Shown here: positions 22,583 to 36,191 of the stretch, piece by piece
How positions within the stretch are numbered: position 1 is the stretch's first letter
Layout: every line of letters starts with the position of its first letter
DNA from: Bacteroidota bacterium
Lineage (GTDB): Bacteria > Bacteroidota > Ignavibacteria > Ignavibacteriales > Melioribacteraceae
Direction of reading: 5' to 3'
Assembly: GCA_018818165.1 (NCBI GenBank)
Contig: JAHISP010000071.1
Location: 62,001-126,000, forward strand
Length of the DNA stretch: 64,000 bases
Position numbers and translations under genes: made by a program
The notes under the pieces: model-generated
Told to the model about the DNA's origin: nothing
What the model saw: only the letters and a program-made list of their open reading frames with translations
Databases searched by the model: none

Positions 22583-25500
22583 GTGAATATCAAAAGAATT
22601 TTCGTTGAAAAAAAAGATGGTTTTAACATTGAAGCTGTTTCTTTAACAAAAGAACTAAAAGAGCATCTTTTTATTTCTGGAATTGAACATGTGCGAATTT
22701 TATATCGTTACGATATTGAAAATATTTCTGACGAAATTTATGAACTTGCGAGAAAAACAATCTTTTCGGAACCTCCAGTTGATTTTGTTTATGATGAAGA
22801 ATTTTTAGTAAATCCCAAAGACAAAATTTTTGCAATTGAATATTTGCCAGGTCAATATGACCAGCGAGCGGATTCTGCTTCGCAATGTATTCAAATTTTA
22901 ACTCAAGGCGAACGTACAAGTGTTAAATATGCTAAAGTTGTGATTATTAATGGAAGTATTTCGGATGAAGATTTTAGCAAAATTAAGCACTATTTGATAA
23001 ATCCAGTTGATTCTCGCGAAGCAACAAACCCAAAACCCAAAACTCTTGTTGATGAAACTTTCATTCCAGATGATGTTTTAATTATTGAAAATTTCATTTC
23101 AATGAATGAAAATGAATTAAGCAGCCTACTAAAATCAATGGCTTTGGCAATGGATTTGGATGATTTAACGTTCTGTCAAAACTACTTTCGCAATGATGAA
23201 AAAAGAAATCCAACAATTACTGAAATGAAAATTTTGGACACATATTGGTCAGATCATTGTCGCCACACAACATTTTCCACAACTATTAACCAAATTGAAT
23301 TTGAAAGCGGAAAAATAACTTCCAAAATAAAAGAAATTTATGAGCAATATCTTAAAGATAGAGAATTTGTTTACGGCGAAAGAATTACGCAAAAAGAAAT
23401 AAATTTTATGGACATTGCAACTCTTGCAATGAAAAAATTGAAAAAAGAAGGAAAGCTTGTTGGGCTTGATGAATCGGAAGAAATAAACGCTTGCAGCATT
23501 GAAGTAAAAGTAGATATTGCTGGAAAAGATGAAGATTGGCTTGTAATGTTCAAAAATGAAACGCACAATCATCCAACCGAAATTGAACCTTTTGGCGGCG
23601 CAGCAACTTGCCTTGGTGGAGCAATTCGCGATCCGCTTTCGGGTCGTGCGTATGTTTATCAAGCTATGCGTGTTACTGGTTCTGGCGATCCGCGAATTTC
23701 GATTGATAAAACAATTGAAGGCAAGTTGCCACAACGTAAAATTACTACCGAAGCGGCTCACGGATATAGTTCTTATGGAAATCAAATTGGATTAAGCACC
23801 GGACTTGTTGATGAAATTTATCATCCAGGCTATGTTGCAAAACGGATGGAAATAGGAGCTGTGATTGCTGCTGTTCCAAAATGCAATGTTGTACGCGAAA
23901 GACCGACCGCAGGCGATGTAATTGTTCTACTTGGTGGAAAAACTGGACGCGATGGATGTGGCGGTGCAACTGGCTCTTCAAAAGCTCACACAGAAGATTC
24001 AATTATTACTTGCGGTGCAGAAGTTCAAAAAGGAAACGCACCAGAAGAAAGAAAAATACAGCGACTTTTTAGAAATCCAGAAGTTACGCGGATGATTAAA
24101 CGCTGCAACGATTTTGGTGCTGGTGGAGTTTCAGTCGCAGTTGGTGAACTCGCCGATGGATTGGAAATAAATCTTGATGCAATTCCAAAAAAATATGAAG
24201 GTCTTGACGGAACAGAATTAGCAATTTCTGAAAGCCAAGAACGAATGGCATGTGTTATTTCCAAAGAAAATGAAATTGATTTTAAAATTGCTGCTTCAAA
24301 AGAAAATATTGAAACATCTACTGTTGCCGAAGTGAAGGAAGAAAAAAGAGTAAAAATGCTTTGGCGTGGAAAATCAATTGTGGATATTTCACGACAATTT
24401 CTTGATAGCAACGGAGCTACAAAAATCAGCAAAGTTAAAATTACTGAGCCACAAGCGGAAAGCTATTTTAATAAAAGTGAAGCAGAAAACATTAAAATTG
24501 AATGGTTAAAAATGTTTGCAAACTTGAATGTGGCAAGTAAAAAAGGATTGGTTGAGCGATTTGATAATTGCGTTGGTGCTGCAACCGTAAATTATCCTTT
24601 TGGCGGAAAATATCAGCTAACACCAACCGAAAGCATGACTGCAAAAATTCCCACTTTAATAAATGAAACCACAACTGGAACAATAATGAGTTACGGTTTT
24701 GACCCATTTGTTTCAAGTTGGTCACCATTTCACGGAGCAATTTATGCTGTTGTTGAATCGGTTGCAAAAATTGTCGCATCTGGCGGAAACTATAAATCCG
24801 TTTGGTTTAGCTTTCAGGAGTATTTTGAAAGGCTTGGTGAAAATTCCACAAGATGGGGAAAACCAATGGCAGCTTTACTTGGTGCGTATTATGCTCAAAT
24901 GCAATTTGGGCGAGCCGCAATTGGTGGAAAAGATAGTATGTCAGGCTCATTTAAGGATTTGGACGTTCCTCCAACATTGGTTTCGTTTGCTGTTGATACT
25001 GCAAATTTGGAAAATATTATTTCACCAGAGTTTAAAAGCACAAATTCAGTGGTGATTTACCTTCCGCCCAAATGTGATGAAAATTATCTTCCAAATTTCA
25101 ATTTGCTTAAATCTAATTACGAAGTAGTTTCTGAGTTGGTTAAGCAGAAAAAAATAAACGCAATTCACACGGTAAAAGGCAATGGCATTGCCGAAACAAT
25201 TAGCAAAATGTGTTTTGGAAATAGAATTGGATTCAAATTTGACTCAAGTTTTGATAGCAAAATGTTGTTCCAACCAGCTTTTGGTGGATTGATTTTGGAA
25301 TTGAAATCAGACGTTAATCCACAAGAAAATTTTGCTAATTTGGAATTTATCAATCTTGGCAACACAATTTTGGAAGAAAAAATTATTGTTGGCGAAGTTG
25401 AAATAAATCTTGAAGAAGCAATTTCAACTTGGTCAGAGCCGCTTGAAGATATTTTTCCAACAAAAGTAGAATGCAAAAAGACGACTTTTGAAGATTACAA

Positions 25501-26341
25501 ATATGAAGGAAAAAGCATCTATTTAGCCAAAAACAGAATTGCGAAACCACAAATTTTAATTCCAGTTTTTCCAGGAACAAACAGTGAATATGATTCAGCC
25601 AAAGTTTTTGAAAAAGCGGGCGGAACGACGAGCATAATTCCTGTAAGAAATTTAACAGCTAAAATGCTGGAAGAAACAATAACGGAATTGACCGAAAGCA
25701 TAAAAAAATCGCAAATTGTTTTTATTCCAGGCGGATTTAGTGCCGGCGACGAGCCAGAAGGAAGTGGAAAGTTTATCGCTGCTATGTTCCGAAATCCACA
25801 AATTAAAGATGCGGTTTCTGATTTATTAAACAATCGCGACGGACTAATTCTTGGAATTTGTAACGGATTTCAAGCTTTAATAAAATTGGGATTGCTTCCA
25901 TACGGCGAAATTAGGGAAATTGACGACGAAACTCCGACGCTTACTTTTAACAAAATTGGACGACATATTTCCAAAATTGTGTATGCAAAAACAGTTTCAA
26001 ATCTTTCGCCTTGGCTTAAAAATGTAAATGTTGGAACAATTCAAGCAGTTCCAGTTTCGCATGGCGAAGGCAGATTTGTTGCAAACGAACAATGGCTTGC
26101 AAAATTAAAAGAAAGTGGACAAATTGCAACTCAATATGTCAATTTTAACGGCAACCCAACAATGGATGTTTTCTTTAATCCAAATAGCTCTGATTTTGCA
26201 GTTGAAGGTATTACGAGTCCAGATGGAAGAGTTTTTGGAAAAATGGGACACAACGAACGGCTCGGAAATTTTGTTGGACAAAATATTCCAGGCAATAAAG
26301 AAATAAAATTATTTGAAGCTGGGGTGGAGTATTTTAGATAG
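22583..26341 (+). CDS. purL: Phosphoribosylformylglycinamidine synthase, single-chain
   Basis: This 1252-residue enzyme converts FGAR to FGAM with glutamine in purine synthesis. The N-terminus (IKRIFVEKKDGFNIEA...VRILYRYDIENIS) resembles the clostridial-type single-chain PurL. The paired AIRS-like halves contain TYWSDHCRHTTF and FKNETHNHPTEIEPFGGAATC. The C-terminal class I glutaminase has the nucleophile Cys1093 in LGICNGFQAL and the His in MGHNER. The start is GTG with GAGGA 5 bp upstream. The last 80 bases are duplicated 645 bp downstream (see repeats), so the present 3' end may have been replaced by recombination. Confidence 0.95.
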   Translation: MNIKRIFVEKKDGFNIEAVSLTKELKEHLFISGIEHVRILYRYDIENISDEIYELARKTIFSEPPVDFVYDEEFLVNPKDKIFAIEYLPGQYDQRADSASQCIQILTQGERTSVKYAKVVIINGSISDEDFSKIKHYLINPVDSREATNPKPKTLVDETFIPDDVLIIENFISMNENELSSLLKSMALAMDLDDLTFCQNYFRNDEKRNPTITEMKILDTYWSDHCRHTTFSTTINQIEFESGKITSKIKEIYEQYLKDREFVYGERITQKEINFMDIATLAMKKLKKEGKLVGLDESEEINACSIEVKVDIAGKDEDWLVMFKNETHNHPTEIEPFGGAATCLGGAIRDPLSGRAYVYQAMRVTGSGDPRISIDKTIEGKLPQRKITTEAAHGYSSYGNQIGLSTGLVDEIYHPGYVAKRMEIGAVIAAVPKCNVVRERPTAGDVIVLLGGKTGRDGCGGATGSSKAHTEDSIITCGAEVQKGNAPEERKIQRLFRNPEVTRMIKRCNDFGAGGVSVAVGELADGLEINLDAIPKKYEGLDGTELAISESQERMACVISKENEIDFKIAASKENIETSTVAEVKEEKRVKMLWRGKSIVDISRQFLDSNGATKISKVKITEPQAESYFNKSEAENIKIEWLKMFANLNVASKKGLVERFDNCVGAATVNYPFGGKYQLTPTESMTAKIPTLINETTTGTIMSYGFDPFVSSWSPFHGAIYAVVESVAKIVASGGNYKSVWFSFQEYFERLGENSTRWGKPMAALLGAYYAQMQFGRAAIGGKDSMSGSFKDLDVPPTLVSFAVDTANLENIISPEFKSTNSVVIYLPPKCDENYLPNFNLLKSNYEVVSELVKQKKINAIHTVKGNGIAETISKMCFGNRIGFKFDSSFDSKMLFQPAFGGLILELKSDVNPQENFANLEFINLGNTILEEKIIVGEVEINLEEAISTWSEPLEDIFPTKVECKKTTFEDYKYEGKSIYLAKNRIAKPQILIPVFPGTNSEYDSAKVFEKAGGTTSIIPVRNLTAKMLEETITELTESIKKSQIVFIPGGFSAGDEPEGSGKFIAAMFRNPQIKDAVSDLLNNRDGLILGICNGFQALIKLGLLPYGEIREIDDETPTLTFNKIGRHISKIVYAKTVSNLSPWLKNVNVGTIQAVPVSHGEGRFVANEQWLAKLKESGQIATQYVNFNGNPTMDVFFNPNSSDFAVEGITSPDGRVFGKMGHNERLGNFVGQNIPGNKEIKLFEAGVEYFR
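26262..26341 (+). repeat. purL 3'-end direct repeat, copy 1 (in gene)
   Basis: These are the last 80 bases of purL, including the stop. The same 80 bases recur at 26907-26986 with 74 identities and a 42-base exact core. Four of the six differences are silent, including the stop codon (TAG here, TAA there). Two change amino acids (Phe/Tyr, Gly/Glu). Confidence 0.9.
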
Positions 26342-26616
26342 TTTTTATGTTTAAATAGCACGCGGATTGAACGGATTTTGCGGATTTGCACGGATTGCAG
26401 TTAAAAAAAGATTAAGATTAAGAGTTCTTTTTTTTTTTTTCAGTTCATCCTAAAAAATCATAATAATCATAAAAATCTGCGTTCCTATTTTTATATTGCA
26501 TACGGTTTTATCAGATTGAATTTCAAGAGCAGATTAAGATTAGGATTAAGAATTAAGATTAAGAAAAAATATCATGCGGATTTAAAGGATTTTGCGGATT
26601 TGAATTATATTAACTT
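26342..26616. repeat. Insert between the purL repeats: cggatt and attaag repeats
   Basis: No gene was seen here. A 27-base direct repeat beginning GCGGATT lies at 26362-26388 and again at 26576-26602 with two mismatches. Between them are AGATTAAG-type short tandem repeats (26409-26424 and 26531-26564) and a T run. The GCGGATT repeats look like the 'cggatt' type often seen between genes in Bacteroidota-related genomes. The stretch begins right after the purL stop. Confidence 0.7.
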
Positions 26617-26799
26617 TTACTCGAACCATTTTTCAATTTCTTTGTCTAGTTCATTTTCAGTTATAGTTTGTCCAGTCTCAGACTGAGTATTTCCATTTTC
26701 GATTTTTGAAATTAAAATTAGTTTGTCATTCAAATCATCGATTGAAAATTCTTCTGGAAACTCTTCAATTTGTTCTAAAAGATTTGTTTTAGTAAGCAT
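26617..26799 (-). CDS. Small antitoxin-like protein (orphan)
   Basis: This 60-residue acidic protein contains ...NLLEQIEEFPEEFSIDDL... and ends ITENELDKEIEKWFE. The layout resembles short antitoxins paired with RelE/ParE toxins in Bacteroidota, in which a helical dimerisation part is followed by an acidic Trp-containing tail that wraps the toxin. GAGGT lies 7 bp before the ATG, so it appears translatable. No toxin gene is adjacent on the same strand: downstream are only the GCGGATT repeats and the end of purL. It lies wholly inside the insert bounded by the purL repeats. Confidence 0.55.
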   Translation of the reverse strand: MLTKTNLLEQIEEFPEEFSIDDLNDKLILISKIENGNTQSETGQTITENELDKEIEKWFE

Positions 26800-27344
26800 T
26801 TTTTTACCTCAAATATTCTAAAATTATTTCATACACATATTACAATTAAGTGTTATCAATTTAGCAAAATATTTACTCATAATATATTCAATTTTCTAAA
26901 TCTATTTCGGAAATTATGTTGAACAAAATATTCCAGGCAATAAAGAAATAAAATTATTTGAAGCAGGGGTTGAGTATTTTAGGTAAAAAATGGAACGCTA
27001 CACGATTAAAGTTTCTAAAATATAATTTGTTGTCAGTATCTTTTCATGCTGTAGAAGATTTTTAAGATAACATCAATGGTTCACGACAGCAAACCAAAGA
27101 ATGTCTATGTTGTAAGTATAATATTCACAATCAACAAATTGTTTTAAAATTGGGATTGGCTTGTAAAACTGCTTAAAATTTATTTGTTCAAGGTGTGTTT
27201 TGCTTTGTGGTATGAGAAGACTTTTCTTGGTAAAAGATAGAAAATTTGTTTAACTTAGCAAAGGAATAATAACAAAAGTTATGTATGTTTGCAATTAGTA
27301 AGAGAAATTTGGCAGGTGTTTTAAATTAATTATTTGAGGGAGTA
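26800..27344. other. 545-bp gap holding the displaced purL end and unassigned DNA
   Basis: Apart from the second purL 3' copy (26907-26986) no gene was seen. Bases 27189-27206 (CAAGGTGTGTTTTGCTTT) nearly repeat the right end of the palindromic element at 30151-30170. The 3' part probably carries the promoter of the protease gene; TATGTTTG at 27284-27291 matches the Bacteroidota -7 consensus TAnnTTTG, but no partner -33 box at proper spacing was found. Confidence 0.5.
26907..26986 (+). repeat. purL 3'-end direct repeat, copy 2 (displaced)
   Basis: This 80-base duplicate of the purL end keeps frame and a stop codon (TAA 26984-26986). It encodes the tail GNYVEQNIPGNKEIKLFEAG and VEYFR. It has no upstream coding context. 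It is probably the original 3' end, displaced when the 565-bp segment 26342-26906 arrived with its own purL end, or the reverse. Confidence 0.85.
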
Positions 27345-30882: not shown

Positions 30883-31148
30883 TTACTCGTAATGTGTCCA
30901 CATTCGTAAAATTTTAACAACATGGTCATTTTCTAAAACTTGATAAACCAATCTGTGTTGAATATTAATTCGGCGTGATAAAGTACCAGTTAAATCTCCC
31001 AATAATCTTTCTAAAGGCGGTGGATTTTTAAATGTACCGTCTTCAAGCAATTTAATTATAGATTGCGCTTTAGGTTTTAAATTTGAGGAAGAGAGTTTTT
31101 TTTCATCTTTTTGTGCTCGTCAGTAAAAACAATTTTCCACTTTACCAA
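30883..31148 (-). pseudogene. yoeB: Frameshifted Txe/YoeB-type toxin
   Basis: Read on the minus strand from TTG at 31148, which overlaps the antitoxin stop, the frame gives VKWKIVFTDE. It then leaves frame through a single-base deletion near 31115. With one base restored the frame stays open to TAA at 30883-30885 and reads ...SIIKLLEDGTFKNPP, PLERLLGDLTGTLSRRINIQ and HRLVYQVLEN...WTHYE. This is a complete YoeB C-terminus including the RINIQHRLVYQV region and the terminal catalytic HY. Repaired length is about 88 residues, normal for the family. As written the product is truncated after about 20 residues, so the mRNA-cleaving toxin should be inactive. A sequencing error is the alternative. Confidence 0.85.
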
Positions 31149-31384
31149 TCTAATTCCGTAGAACAATCATCTGTTTTGGTGTTTGCACCTTCAATAATGG
31201 ATTCGAGCATATTGGGAATTGATAGAAGATACAGAGTTTCTTGAATTGCTCGCCAATTGTCATCCGAGATTAAAACAGTATCACCTCTTTTTCCTGTTAT
31301 TTTGATTGGTTCATTTGTTGAATGAGTGTCGTCAATCAATTTGTAAAGATTTAAACGTGTGCTTGCAGCATCTATAGTTTTCAT
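31142..31384 (-). CDS. yefM: YefM/Phd-family antitoxin
   Basis: The 80-residue protein shows the whole YefM pattern: an N-terminal DNA-binding Phd fold (MKTIDAASTRLNLYKLIDD, then EPIKITGKRGDTVLISDDNW), RAIQETLYLLSIPNM, and a C-terminal acidic tail ending ELDW that folds onto YoeB. Its stop overlaps the start of the broken toxin gene, as in intact yefM-yoeB operons. The antitoxin is intact while the toxin is frameshifted, the usual order of decay for such modules. Confidence 0.9.
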   Translation of the reverse strand: MKTIDAASTRLNLYKLIDDTHSTNEPIKITGKRGDTVLISDDNWRAIQETLYLLSIPNMLESIIEGANTKTDDCSTELDW

Positions 31385-31514
31385 AAATCACTCCATTTGA
31401 ATTATAGAAAAGTACATAATAACGAAGGGAAAAGCAGATAATTATTTTCCAAAATTATATAGATAATACTGCTGTCCTAAACAGAAATAAATTACTGTGT
31501 TTAGATATGCTACA

Positions 31515-33146: not shown

Positions 33147-33527
33147 TTAGCCTATTTCTTCGATAATTTTGTTAATAGTTACTGATAAATGTGGAATATT
33201 TTTTTCGCAAACCCAAAATATTTGTTCAGCATCAATATCAAAATAGTGATGAGAAATTATATCTCTCATTCCTTTTGCCCCTTTCCAATCAACATTGGGA
33301 TATTTATTTAAAAGTTTTGAATTAGTCATTTTGTCAATATTTTTCAAACTTTCTCCAATGGCAATTAATTGCATACAAATTGCATCAAGTGTTACCATAC
33401 CTTGATTAGAATTGGTAAAGTCTTCAACCGATTTGATTGAACTGAAGCGCTCATTTACTTTTTGAGTGGCAACATAGATTTGCTCTAGGATGCTGATTAC
33501 TAATTCTTTGTCATACATAACTAGCAT
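33147..33527 (-). CDS. HepT-like HEPN toxin (DUF86)
   Basis: This 126-residue all-helical HEPN protein has the active-site motif RX4HXY complete as Arg88, His93 and Tyr95 in RDIISHHY. HepT toxins cleave RNA and are neutralised when the partner MntA adds AMP groups to the tyrosine of this motif. Its start overlaps the end of the nucleotidyltransferase gene by 17 bp, the standard operon layout. The motif is intact, so this pair looks functional. Confidence 0.88.
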   Translation of the reverse strand: MLVMYDKELVISILEQIYVATQKVNERFSSIKSVEDFTNSNQGMVTLDAICMQLIAIGESLKNIDKMTNSKLLNKYPNVDWKGAKGMRDIISHHYFDIDAEQIFWVCEKNIPHLSVTINKIIEEIG

Positions 33528-33801
33528 CAGTATTAATTCGTTTCATCAAAATTGGATTCATATTGCCTCGTTTTCTTATTAAATCAACTTTTGTTTTTAA
33601 TAACAATTCAAGTTCTTCTTTTATATGCACTAACTGAAATAAGTCTGGAGTTTTAGTCTCAATAACAATATCAATATCACTGTTTTCATTTTCTTCATTT
33701 CTAGAATATGAGCCAAAAACACCAATTGATTTAATACCGTATCTATTTTGATTTAGAGTTTTATATTCTTTAAGAGTCTTTAAAATTATTGCCTTATTCA
33801 T
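33511..33801 (-). CDS. MntA-like minimal nucleotidyltransferase antitoxin
   Basis: This 96-residue minimal polymerase-beta-type nucleotidyltransferase has the GSx10DxD motif as Gly30-Ser31 in FGSYSR and Asp42/Asp44 in NSDIDIVIE. In HEPN/MNT modules this enzyme AMPylates and silences the HepT partner. The order MntA then HepT with a 17-bp overlap is typical. Confidence 0.88.
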   Translation of the reverse strand: MNKAIILKTLKEYKTLNQNRYGIKSIGVFGSYSRNEENENSDIDIVIETKTPDLFQLVHIKEELELLLKTKVDLIRKRGNMNPILMKRINTDASYV

Positions 33802-34010: not shown

Positions 34011-36191
34011 TTAGCCAAATCTTTCTTTGATAATTTCCATCAATTTAATTGTAGCTTCCGGAATTTTTGTTCCGGGTCCAAAGATTGCGGAAGCACCGTG
34101 TTCGTATAGGAATTCATAATCTTGTGCTGGAATTACTCCGCCAATAATTACAATTATATCTTCACGTCCAAGTGCTTTTAGTTCAGCAACCAATTGTGGA
34201 AGTAAAGTTTTGTGTCCCGCGGCAAGCGAACTCATTCCAACAACGTGAACATCATTTTCAACAGCTTGCATAGCAGCTTCTTTCGGAGTTTGAAATAACG
34301 GACCCATATCAACGTCAAAGCCGAGATCGGCGTAGGCGGTAGCAACAACTTTTGCACCACGGTCGTGACCATCCTGTCCAAGTTTAGCAATCAATATTCG
34401 AGGTCGTCTTCCTTCCTCATTTGCAAACTCGTCTGTAAGTTCTTTTGCTTTTTCAACACTCATATTTTTCTCTGAATTATATTCGCCACTATAAACCCCG
34501 GAAATAGTGCGTGTAACAGCTTTGTATCTTCCACTAACTTCTTCAATTGCATCAGAAATTTCGCCAAGAGTTGCTCTTACGCGTGCTGCTTCAACTGCTA
34601 ATTGTAAAAGATTTCCATCACCAGTTGCAGCACATCTAGTTAAATTATTAAGAGCAATTTTTACTGCTTCACTATTTCTGCTAGCTTTTATGTTATTAAG
34701 TCTTTCTATTTGTGATAATCTTACTGCGGTATTATCAACTTCCAAAATATCAATAGGATCTTCTTTATCTAATCTGTATTTATTAATTCCAACAATTGTA
34801 TCTTCGCCAGAATCTATACGTGCTTGTTTACGGGCAGAAGCTTCTTCTATTCGCATTTTAGGAATTCCAGCTTCAATTGCTTTTGTCATTCCGCCATAAG
34901 ATTCCACTTCAAGAATATGTTCCCAACCTTTTTGTACAAGTTCGTTTGTTAACGACTCAACATAGTAAGAGCCAGCCCAAGGATCAATAACTTTTGTAAT
35001 TTCTGTTTCGTCCTGCAAAAATAATTGTGTGTTACGTGCAATGCGGGCAGAAAAATCTGTTGGAAGTGCAATTGCTTCATCCAATGAATTTGTGTGCAAC
35101 GATTGCGTATGCCCCATTACTGCCGCCATAGCTTCAATACAAGTTCTTACAATATTGTTATATGGATCTTGCTCAGTTAAGCTCCAACCAGAAGTTTGCG
35201 AGTGTGTGCGCAACGACATTGACTTTGGATTTTTTGGATTAAATTGTTTAATCAATTTAGCCCAAATTAAACGCGCTGCTCTCATCTTAGCAACTTCCAT
35301 AAAGAAGTTCATGCCTTGTGCCCAGAAGAACGATAGACGCGGCGCAAACGTGTCTATATCCATCCCAGTAGCAATACCAGTGCGAACATATTCCAATCCG
35401 TCAGCAAGTGTGTATGCCATTTCCAAATCGGCAGTAGCACCAGCTTCCTGCATGTGATATCCAGAAATAGAAATGCTATTATATTTAGGCATTTTTTCGG
35501 ATGTGAATTTGAAAATGTCTGCAATAATTTTCATTGACATTTGTGGAGGATAAATATAAGTGTTTCTAACCATGTACTCTTTGAGAATATCATTTTGTAT
35601 AGTGCCAGAAAGGAGTTCGTTTGCAACGCCTTGTTCTTCGGCTGCAACAATAAAAAACGCAAGTATTGGAAGCACGGCTCCATTCATTGTCATTGAAACG
35701 GACATTTTATCAAGAGGAATATTATCGAAAAGAATTTTCATATCCTCAACAGAATCAATAGCAACACCAGCTTTACCAACATCGCCAACAACACGCTCGT
35801 GGTCAGAATCGTATCCGCGGTGTGTTGCTAAATCGAAAGCCACTGAAAGCCCCATTTGACCTTGTGCAAGGTTTCGTCTGTAAAAAGCATTACTTTCTTC
35901 AGCAGTTGAAAATCCGGCATATTGACGAATTGTCCAAGGTTTATTTACATACATCGATGTATAAGGGCCACGCAAAAATGGAGGCAAGCCGGACATATAT
36001 TCCAGATGTTCAAGATTTTTGATATCGTCTTTTGTGTAGAGTGGTTTAACAATAATTTTTTCCATTGTTTTGGTTTCGCACTCAGAAACAGCCTTTCCAG
36101 TTTTATCTGAAAATTGTTTGCTCCACTCATTCATGGTTGATTTATCTATGTTTAATTTTAAATCAATTTCTGCAAAATTTGGATGTCTCAT
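34011..36191 (-). CDS. mutB: Methylmalonyl-CoA mutase large (catalytic) subunit
   Basis: The 726-residue catalytic subunit has a TIM-barrel substrate domain ([20 protein letters not shown], then [17 protein letters not shown] and [19 protein letters not shown]). The C-terminal cobalamin-binding domain has the DxHxxG motif DGHDRG (His609 is the lower-axial cobalt ligand) and GGVIP. It isomerises (R)-methylmalonyl-CoA and succinyl-CoA with adenosylcobalamin. The start overlaps the small-subunit stop by 4 bp, so the subunits are translated in step. Confidence 0.96.

Follow-up and report, generated by a model that had tools for sequence, protein, structure and literature searches.

Restriction-modification (R-M) systems can enter genomes by insertion with long, variable target duplications on the order of 100 bp, according to two reports (PMC3874152, PMC3031569; Nobusato et al. 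2000 and Furuta et al. 2010 cited therein), and a review of toxin-antitoxin (TA) modules cites the R-M insertion work as a parallel (PMC2654758). In only a few strains of Microcystis aeruginosa, two direct repeats of 152 bp enclose a ParE/ParD-type TA pair downstream of the caspase-like MaOC1 gene (PMC7935541). The element Tn5253 has its attB in a coding gene, rbgA, which is restored on integration, with a repeat of 41-84 nt; in E. faecalis the start of rbgA is used, not the end (PMC8571831). Integrons carry TA genes in small, promoter-bearing gene cassettes (PMC2654758). The layout at the 3' end of purL analysed here resembles the R-M "insertion with long target duplication", but one of its two copies appears to be imported. 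No description of TA modules replacing the 3' ends of genes was found in searches of open-access literature.

The window, the whole 64,000-nt stretch of DNA that was analysed, holds an intact purL (22583-26341, plus strand) encoding a large-type FGAM synthase of 1252 aa (Pfam FGAR-AT linker, AIRS_C and GATase_5). Its last 80 bases (copy X, 26262-26341, plus strand) recur 645 bp downstream (copy Y, 26907-26986, plus strand), and a 565-bp insert (26342-26906) separates the two ends. In an ungapped comparison X and Y are identical at 74/80 positions and share a 42-nt exact core (26278-26319 in X, 26923-26964 in Y; plus strand), which confirms the duplication as originally predicted and rules out a chance match (E 8.8e-28). 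The six differences are TTT/TAT, GGA/GAA, GCT/GCA, GTG/GTT, AGA/AGG and TAG/TAA; both copies keep a stop codon, and the predicted count of four silent changes holds if TAG/TAA is included, the non-silent ones being TTT/TAT (F/Y) and GGA/GAA (G/E). An assembly artefact was rejected as very unlikely because X and Y differ and because other, separately assembled genomes share the layout.

It had been suggested that these 80 bases might also border larger islands. A third copy is absent from the window, whose best remaining ungapped match reaches 41/78, and from the rest of the genome; the duplication encloses instead a TA cassette of roughly 0.6 kb in its own right. An IMG/VR scan with the exact 42-base core gave no match, and a GTDB r220 search with the C-terminus of purL returned distant homologues only, mostly clostridial and none of them from a congener. 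The gene itself is of the large fused type, and most other genomes of the family have only a separate PurQ-like match of ~230-260 aa with 34-43% identity; the named best matches of purL are mostly Clostridia, and the genus and a few relatives may therefore have acquired it.

For comparison, congeners were taken at one genome per species: G000, which is the window's genome, and G001, G002, G003 and G004. On the minus strand of the insert lies an intact 60-aa ORF (26617-26799) that Pfam did not recognise. It has an 83% identical relative in G004, in the same gap between purL and a mutase gene, and a 68% identical relative in G001 that shares an overlap with an intact ParE toxin gene (PF05016 in Pfam); by its relationship to the latter relative it is an antitoxin. 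The remnant of a ParE-type toxin start (26582-26629, minus strand) begins in the antitoxin overlap (MVRVKV...) but, some 6 codons on, gives way to GCGGATTT-type repeats. The G001 relative MVRINWTFQAKSDLKAI is an intact toxin in the same frame and overlap as this remnant, and the G004 toxin MVRVNWTLQAKEDLRSI, placed alike, is truncated by a stop after about 27 codons. Thus the overlapping antitoxin-toxin operon typical of type II systems is intact in the G001 relative, and at purL the antitoxin alone is intact. Because the toxin frame is broken in the window, the insert is a decayed ParE-type TA module, a TA fossil whose toxin has since been lost. The original prediction spoke of an orphan antitoxin and repeats; both are indeed in the insert, but the antitoxin is what remains of a TA cargo rather than an orphan. 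The repeats are two copies of the GCGGATTT-type dispersed repeat (26353-26388 and 26567-26602), which has relatives at many places in the genome. No transposase-size ORF, as a sign of a composite transposon, was found in the 565-bp insert. The repeats that flank it are purL coding sequence and, by eye, not attC-like. Integron TA cassettes are also small TA units, but the repeats here are gene ends. The Microcystis case is similar in that direct repeats fence in a ParE-type TA pair immediately downstream of a gene; those repeats differ in being identical, lie 14 bp past the stop codon at their start and contain an inverted repeat, and PMC7935541, in its passages on the locus, gives no account of them as a displaced gene end.

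The ancestral convergent neighbor of purL is a methylmalonyl-CoA mutase subunit gene (34011-36191, minus strand; identified by Pfam), which is the next such gene after purL in G001, G003 and G004. The empty site that the original prediction proposed to look for exists in G003, a congener in which roughly 100 bp separate purL from the mutase gene, with no insert; in the window this gap has grown to 7.7 kb. The G004 gap contains a relative of the window's antitoxin segment (26616-26822, 80% identity) and the G001 gap a relative of its YefM-YoeB segment (30887-31439, a 75% identical stretch), so the gap gathers TA genes in several species. In the window the YefM-YoeB pair lies at 30883-31384, with its toxin ORF shortened to 55 aa, and a HepT-like plus nucleotidyltransferase (MntA-like) pair at 33147-33801 occupies the mutase end of the accessory region.

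Beyond the original prediction, the end-TA-end layout recurs at four other genes in the genus. In G001 (contig C59), a relative of the purL TA lies between two 3' ends of the aconitase gene, with a repeat of 85 nt (82% identity, 41-nt exact core, spacing 627). On G001 contig C87, an FAD-linked oxidase gene has four copies of its 3' end around two ParE-type pairs, with a spacing of 695 in both. Two 3' ends of a DPP-IV-type peptidase gene bracket a YefM-YoeB pair on G000 contig C35, and sdhB 3' ends bracket an antitoxin-ParE pair in G000, G001 and G002. Pfam confirms the identity of targets and toxins at these loci, and different TA families occupy the layout. Intact examples occur in G001 (aconitase and FAD oxidase) and in G000 (DPP-IV-type gene). 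Across loci the repeats measure 80-140 nt and the cassettes 0.6-1 kb, and every X-Y pair contains an exact run of 28-42 nt inside its last 64 nt. Over six pairs, third codon positions account for 49/81 of the X-Y differences; hence each copy has evolved as coding sequence, as had been proposed for purL.

The survey behind this recurrence took in ~40 regions of the genus that hold ParE-type toxins, together with 381 kb of C35 in the window's genome as an unbiased stretch, enclosure being defined by direct repeats of at least 60 nt at a spacing of up to 1.3 kb. ParE-type toxins lay between such repeats in 9/43 cases in the genus, vs 0.8% of random 250-nt intervals (C35); the binomial p of 6e-11 is too small, since orthologous and tandem cases were taken as independent, but this still leaves about six independent loci. 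Of the nine enclosed toxins, six are 3'-end cases and two are enclosed by repeat-family DNA. The remaining one (L189, G001 C43, 49359-50068) is a TA pair with a copy of a 129-nt stretch from upstream of an rfbB-like gene on either side, possibly a 5' counterpart of the 3'-end layout. Four loci with REP-type repeats flanking toxins (L188, L200, L276 and L288) were set aside as dispersed repeats. Outside the genus, there was one possible 3'-end case (L323) among 70 loci.

Several further arrangements were noted. A complete end-TA-end unit with two FAD-oxidase 3' ends (L192, G001 C87, contig positions 10499-11316) lies about 4 kb from the FAD-oxidase gene, past its native neighbor, as if moved without the gene. 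In G001 C12 (L201) the two sdhB terminators, one on each side of the TA, have changed places relative to G000 C75 (L208) and G002 C57 (L205), which is not expected from a single simple event. A similar layout with non-TA cargo is found at G000 C35 9490-11315 (L209), where a ~300-nt stretch with the 3' end and terminator of a gene for a 180-aa protein is duplicated around a YhcG/DUF1016 PDDEXK nuclease gene. At G001 C99 2581-3482 (L178), an ATPase-like ORF lies between the 3' end of a UDP-galactopyranose-mutase-like gene and a second copy of that end (73%, with stops). In an unrelated genome (G149 C18, L305), a ParE-type toxin between attC-like repeats (TAACGACCCTGCGTTTAAGCGG...) is probably part of an integron cassette array.

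At aconitase and the peptidase, comparison with congeners shows which of the two ends is the resident one. Aconitase ends in four congeners with ...NWVK(K/E)QIS or KKEISK, followed in G002 and G003 by a GTGGAC...GTCCAC-type palindrome and then an MExYRQ gene. The G001 gene now ends KRELK (stop) and runs into the TA; the stranded copy past the TA ends KKQIS (stop) and is followed by such a palindrome/terminator and a METYRQ gene. Similarly, the peptidase of G002 (99% identical protein segment) ends LLDK (stop), whereas the G000 gene now ends LLGF (stop) and its stranded copy LLDK (stop). At both genes, therefore, the displaced copy is the native end and the in-frame copy foreign, and the incoming end became the working one, as had been proposed for purL.

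For purL the same assignment is less certain than for aconitase and comes mainly from flank similarity to one genome, G004. The 89 nt that follow Y (26987-27075; GGAACGCT...GATTAAAGTTTCT...) are homologous to the sequence directly after purL in G004 (score 43, shuffled mean 26, p 0.002), whereas the X flank has no match there (p 0.97); against G003 the alignment of the Y flank was not significant, although G003 has the GGAACGCT motif. Ghosts of the purL end were sought behind purL in seven relatives. G004 has a 36-nt ghost beyond the antitoxin (p 0.001-0.002 by shuffling); direct gap tests were significant in G004 and not in G001 (p 0.054) or G003. In a 6-kb scan the best 30-nt match in G004 was 21/30 at the expected place vs a shuffled maximum of 20, and in G002 and G003 the few values above shuffles were all kilobases away. 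The G004-like share of purL informative sites also rises from 43% to 62% at about 25433, a 3'-anchored shift (p 0.0015) that covers the last ~900 bp and points to the species with the same TA antitoxin; the imported stretch may thus exceed the 80 bases, and its source may be a lineage closer to G004. We infer from these comparisons that Y is the native purL end and X the imported one. Against this, the native-type flank in G004 follows the in-frame purL end, so the histories of the window and G004 purL loci are not identical. The original proposal that an incoming segment supplied a purL end and displaced the old one is nevertheless supported by the empty site in G003, by the native-type flank behind Y and by the clear parallels at other genes, most of all at aconitase.

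The most plausible account, which we consider likely, is that a TA cassette with a foreign purL end entered by homologous recombination and left the native end beyond it. Homologous recombination with a donor carrying the target's 3' end beside a TA module is consistent with the foreign end in frame, the stranded native end, the short exact core, the different targets and the lack of a recombinase. A ParE-type cassette of ~0.6 kb, joined to the 3' end of a purL from a different lineage within the genus, would have entered the purL-mutase gap; recombination would have fused the incoming end in frame to the resident purL, keeping the essential enzyme intact, and the resident end with its native flank would have been stranded past the cassette. 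The joint could have been made by RecA-type recombination across about 30-40 nt of identity or more, and addiction could account for the cargo so often being a TA module. Such a donor might have been a circle of gene end plus TA, with a single crossover in the exact core that would leave the left part of Y foreign, or a linear molecule, with a crossover further upstream in purL, an illegitimate right junction and a longer imported stretch in the gene. Breakpoints at aconitase, where the left part of Y is diverged and the right part native, fit a core crossover and hence the circle; the G004 shift in purL favors an upstream crossover and hints at a linear donor. We regard as tentative at best the broader notion that TA modules of the genus form a class of recombinase-free mobile cassettes, circles that each combine a TA pair with a housekeeping gene's 3' end, enter the matching gene of related species by a single homologous crossover, restore it and can re-excise via the two ends.

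The shift near 25433 would also suit plain allelic exchange, in which a linear donor replaced the 3' part of purL with an illegitimate right junction and the TA cargo was incidental. This seems unlikely given the strong TA excess among enclosed sequences and junctions that repeatedly lie 80-140 nt before the stop codon. Site-specific integration, in which a trans-acting tyrosine recombinase would link circular TA cassettes to attB sites within gene 3' ends, as for islands and ICEs, would give the same topology, with the gene end restored by element-borne sequence and a second att beyond, as in PMC8571831; the repeat lengths resemble the 83-nt attB of Tn5253, and nine integrase-domain (PF00589) matches occur elsewhere in the genome. 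Integrative elements, however, have their own integrase and one target gene. Here there are five different targets, and the cores at purL, acn, DPP-IV, FAD oxidase and sdhB have, by eye, no evident common sequence, so that a trans-acting integrase would have to accept many cores. The cassettes are 0.6-1 kb, and no integrase was found in the insert or accessory region or, with 0/9 PF00589 matches, on the window's 346-kb contig C22. We judge this explanation improbable, and there is no sign of an integrase-type element of the kind to which the original prediction likened the insertion. A further alternative is a true insertion with long target duplication, in which ~80 bp of native purL were duplicated by the event itself and the two copies drifted apart afterwards. 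It has the size class (order of 100 bp) and the addiction-module cargo logic on its side, and the R-M reports do describe similar features: an addiction-type gene pair without mobility genes, between ~100-bp direct repeats of target DNA. But the cargo here is TA, and the targets found are mostly 3' ends of housekeeping genes. Moreover, target duplication predicts the native end in the functional copy, whereas at aconitase and the DPP-IV-type peptidase the repeats around the module are not both native and the native end is the displaced one; the X-Y differences also show coding constraint in both copies. An imported in-frame copy and a displaced native copy would make the event an end replacement, not a duplication, and target duplication is improbable.

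How chromosomal TA modules spread without a mobility gene is an open question. The layout seen here recurs, pairs each module with the end of the gene that it targets and lets an imported end be distinguished from a native one, which makes the question testable by strain comparison. As a by-product, the last codons of core enzymes (aconitase and the DPP-IV-type peptidase) are exchanged. The layout looks like a general recombinase-free route by which TA modules settle at gene ends in this genus.
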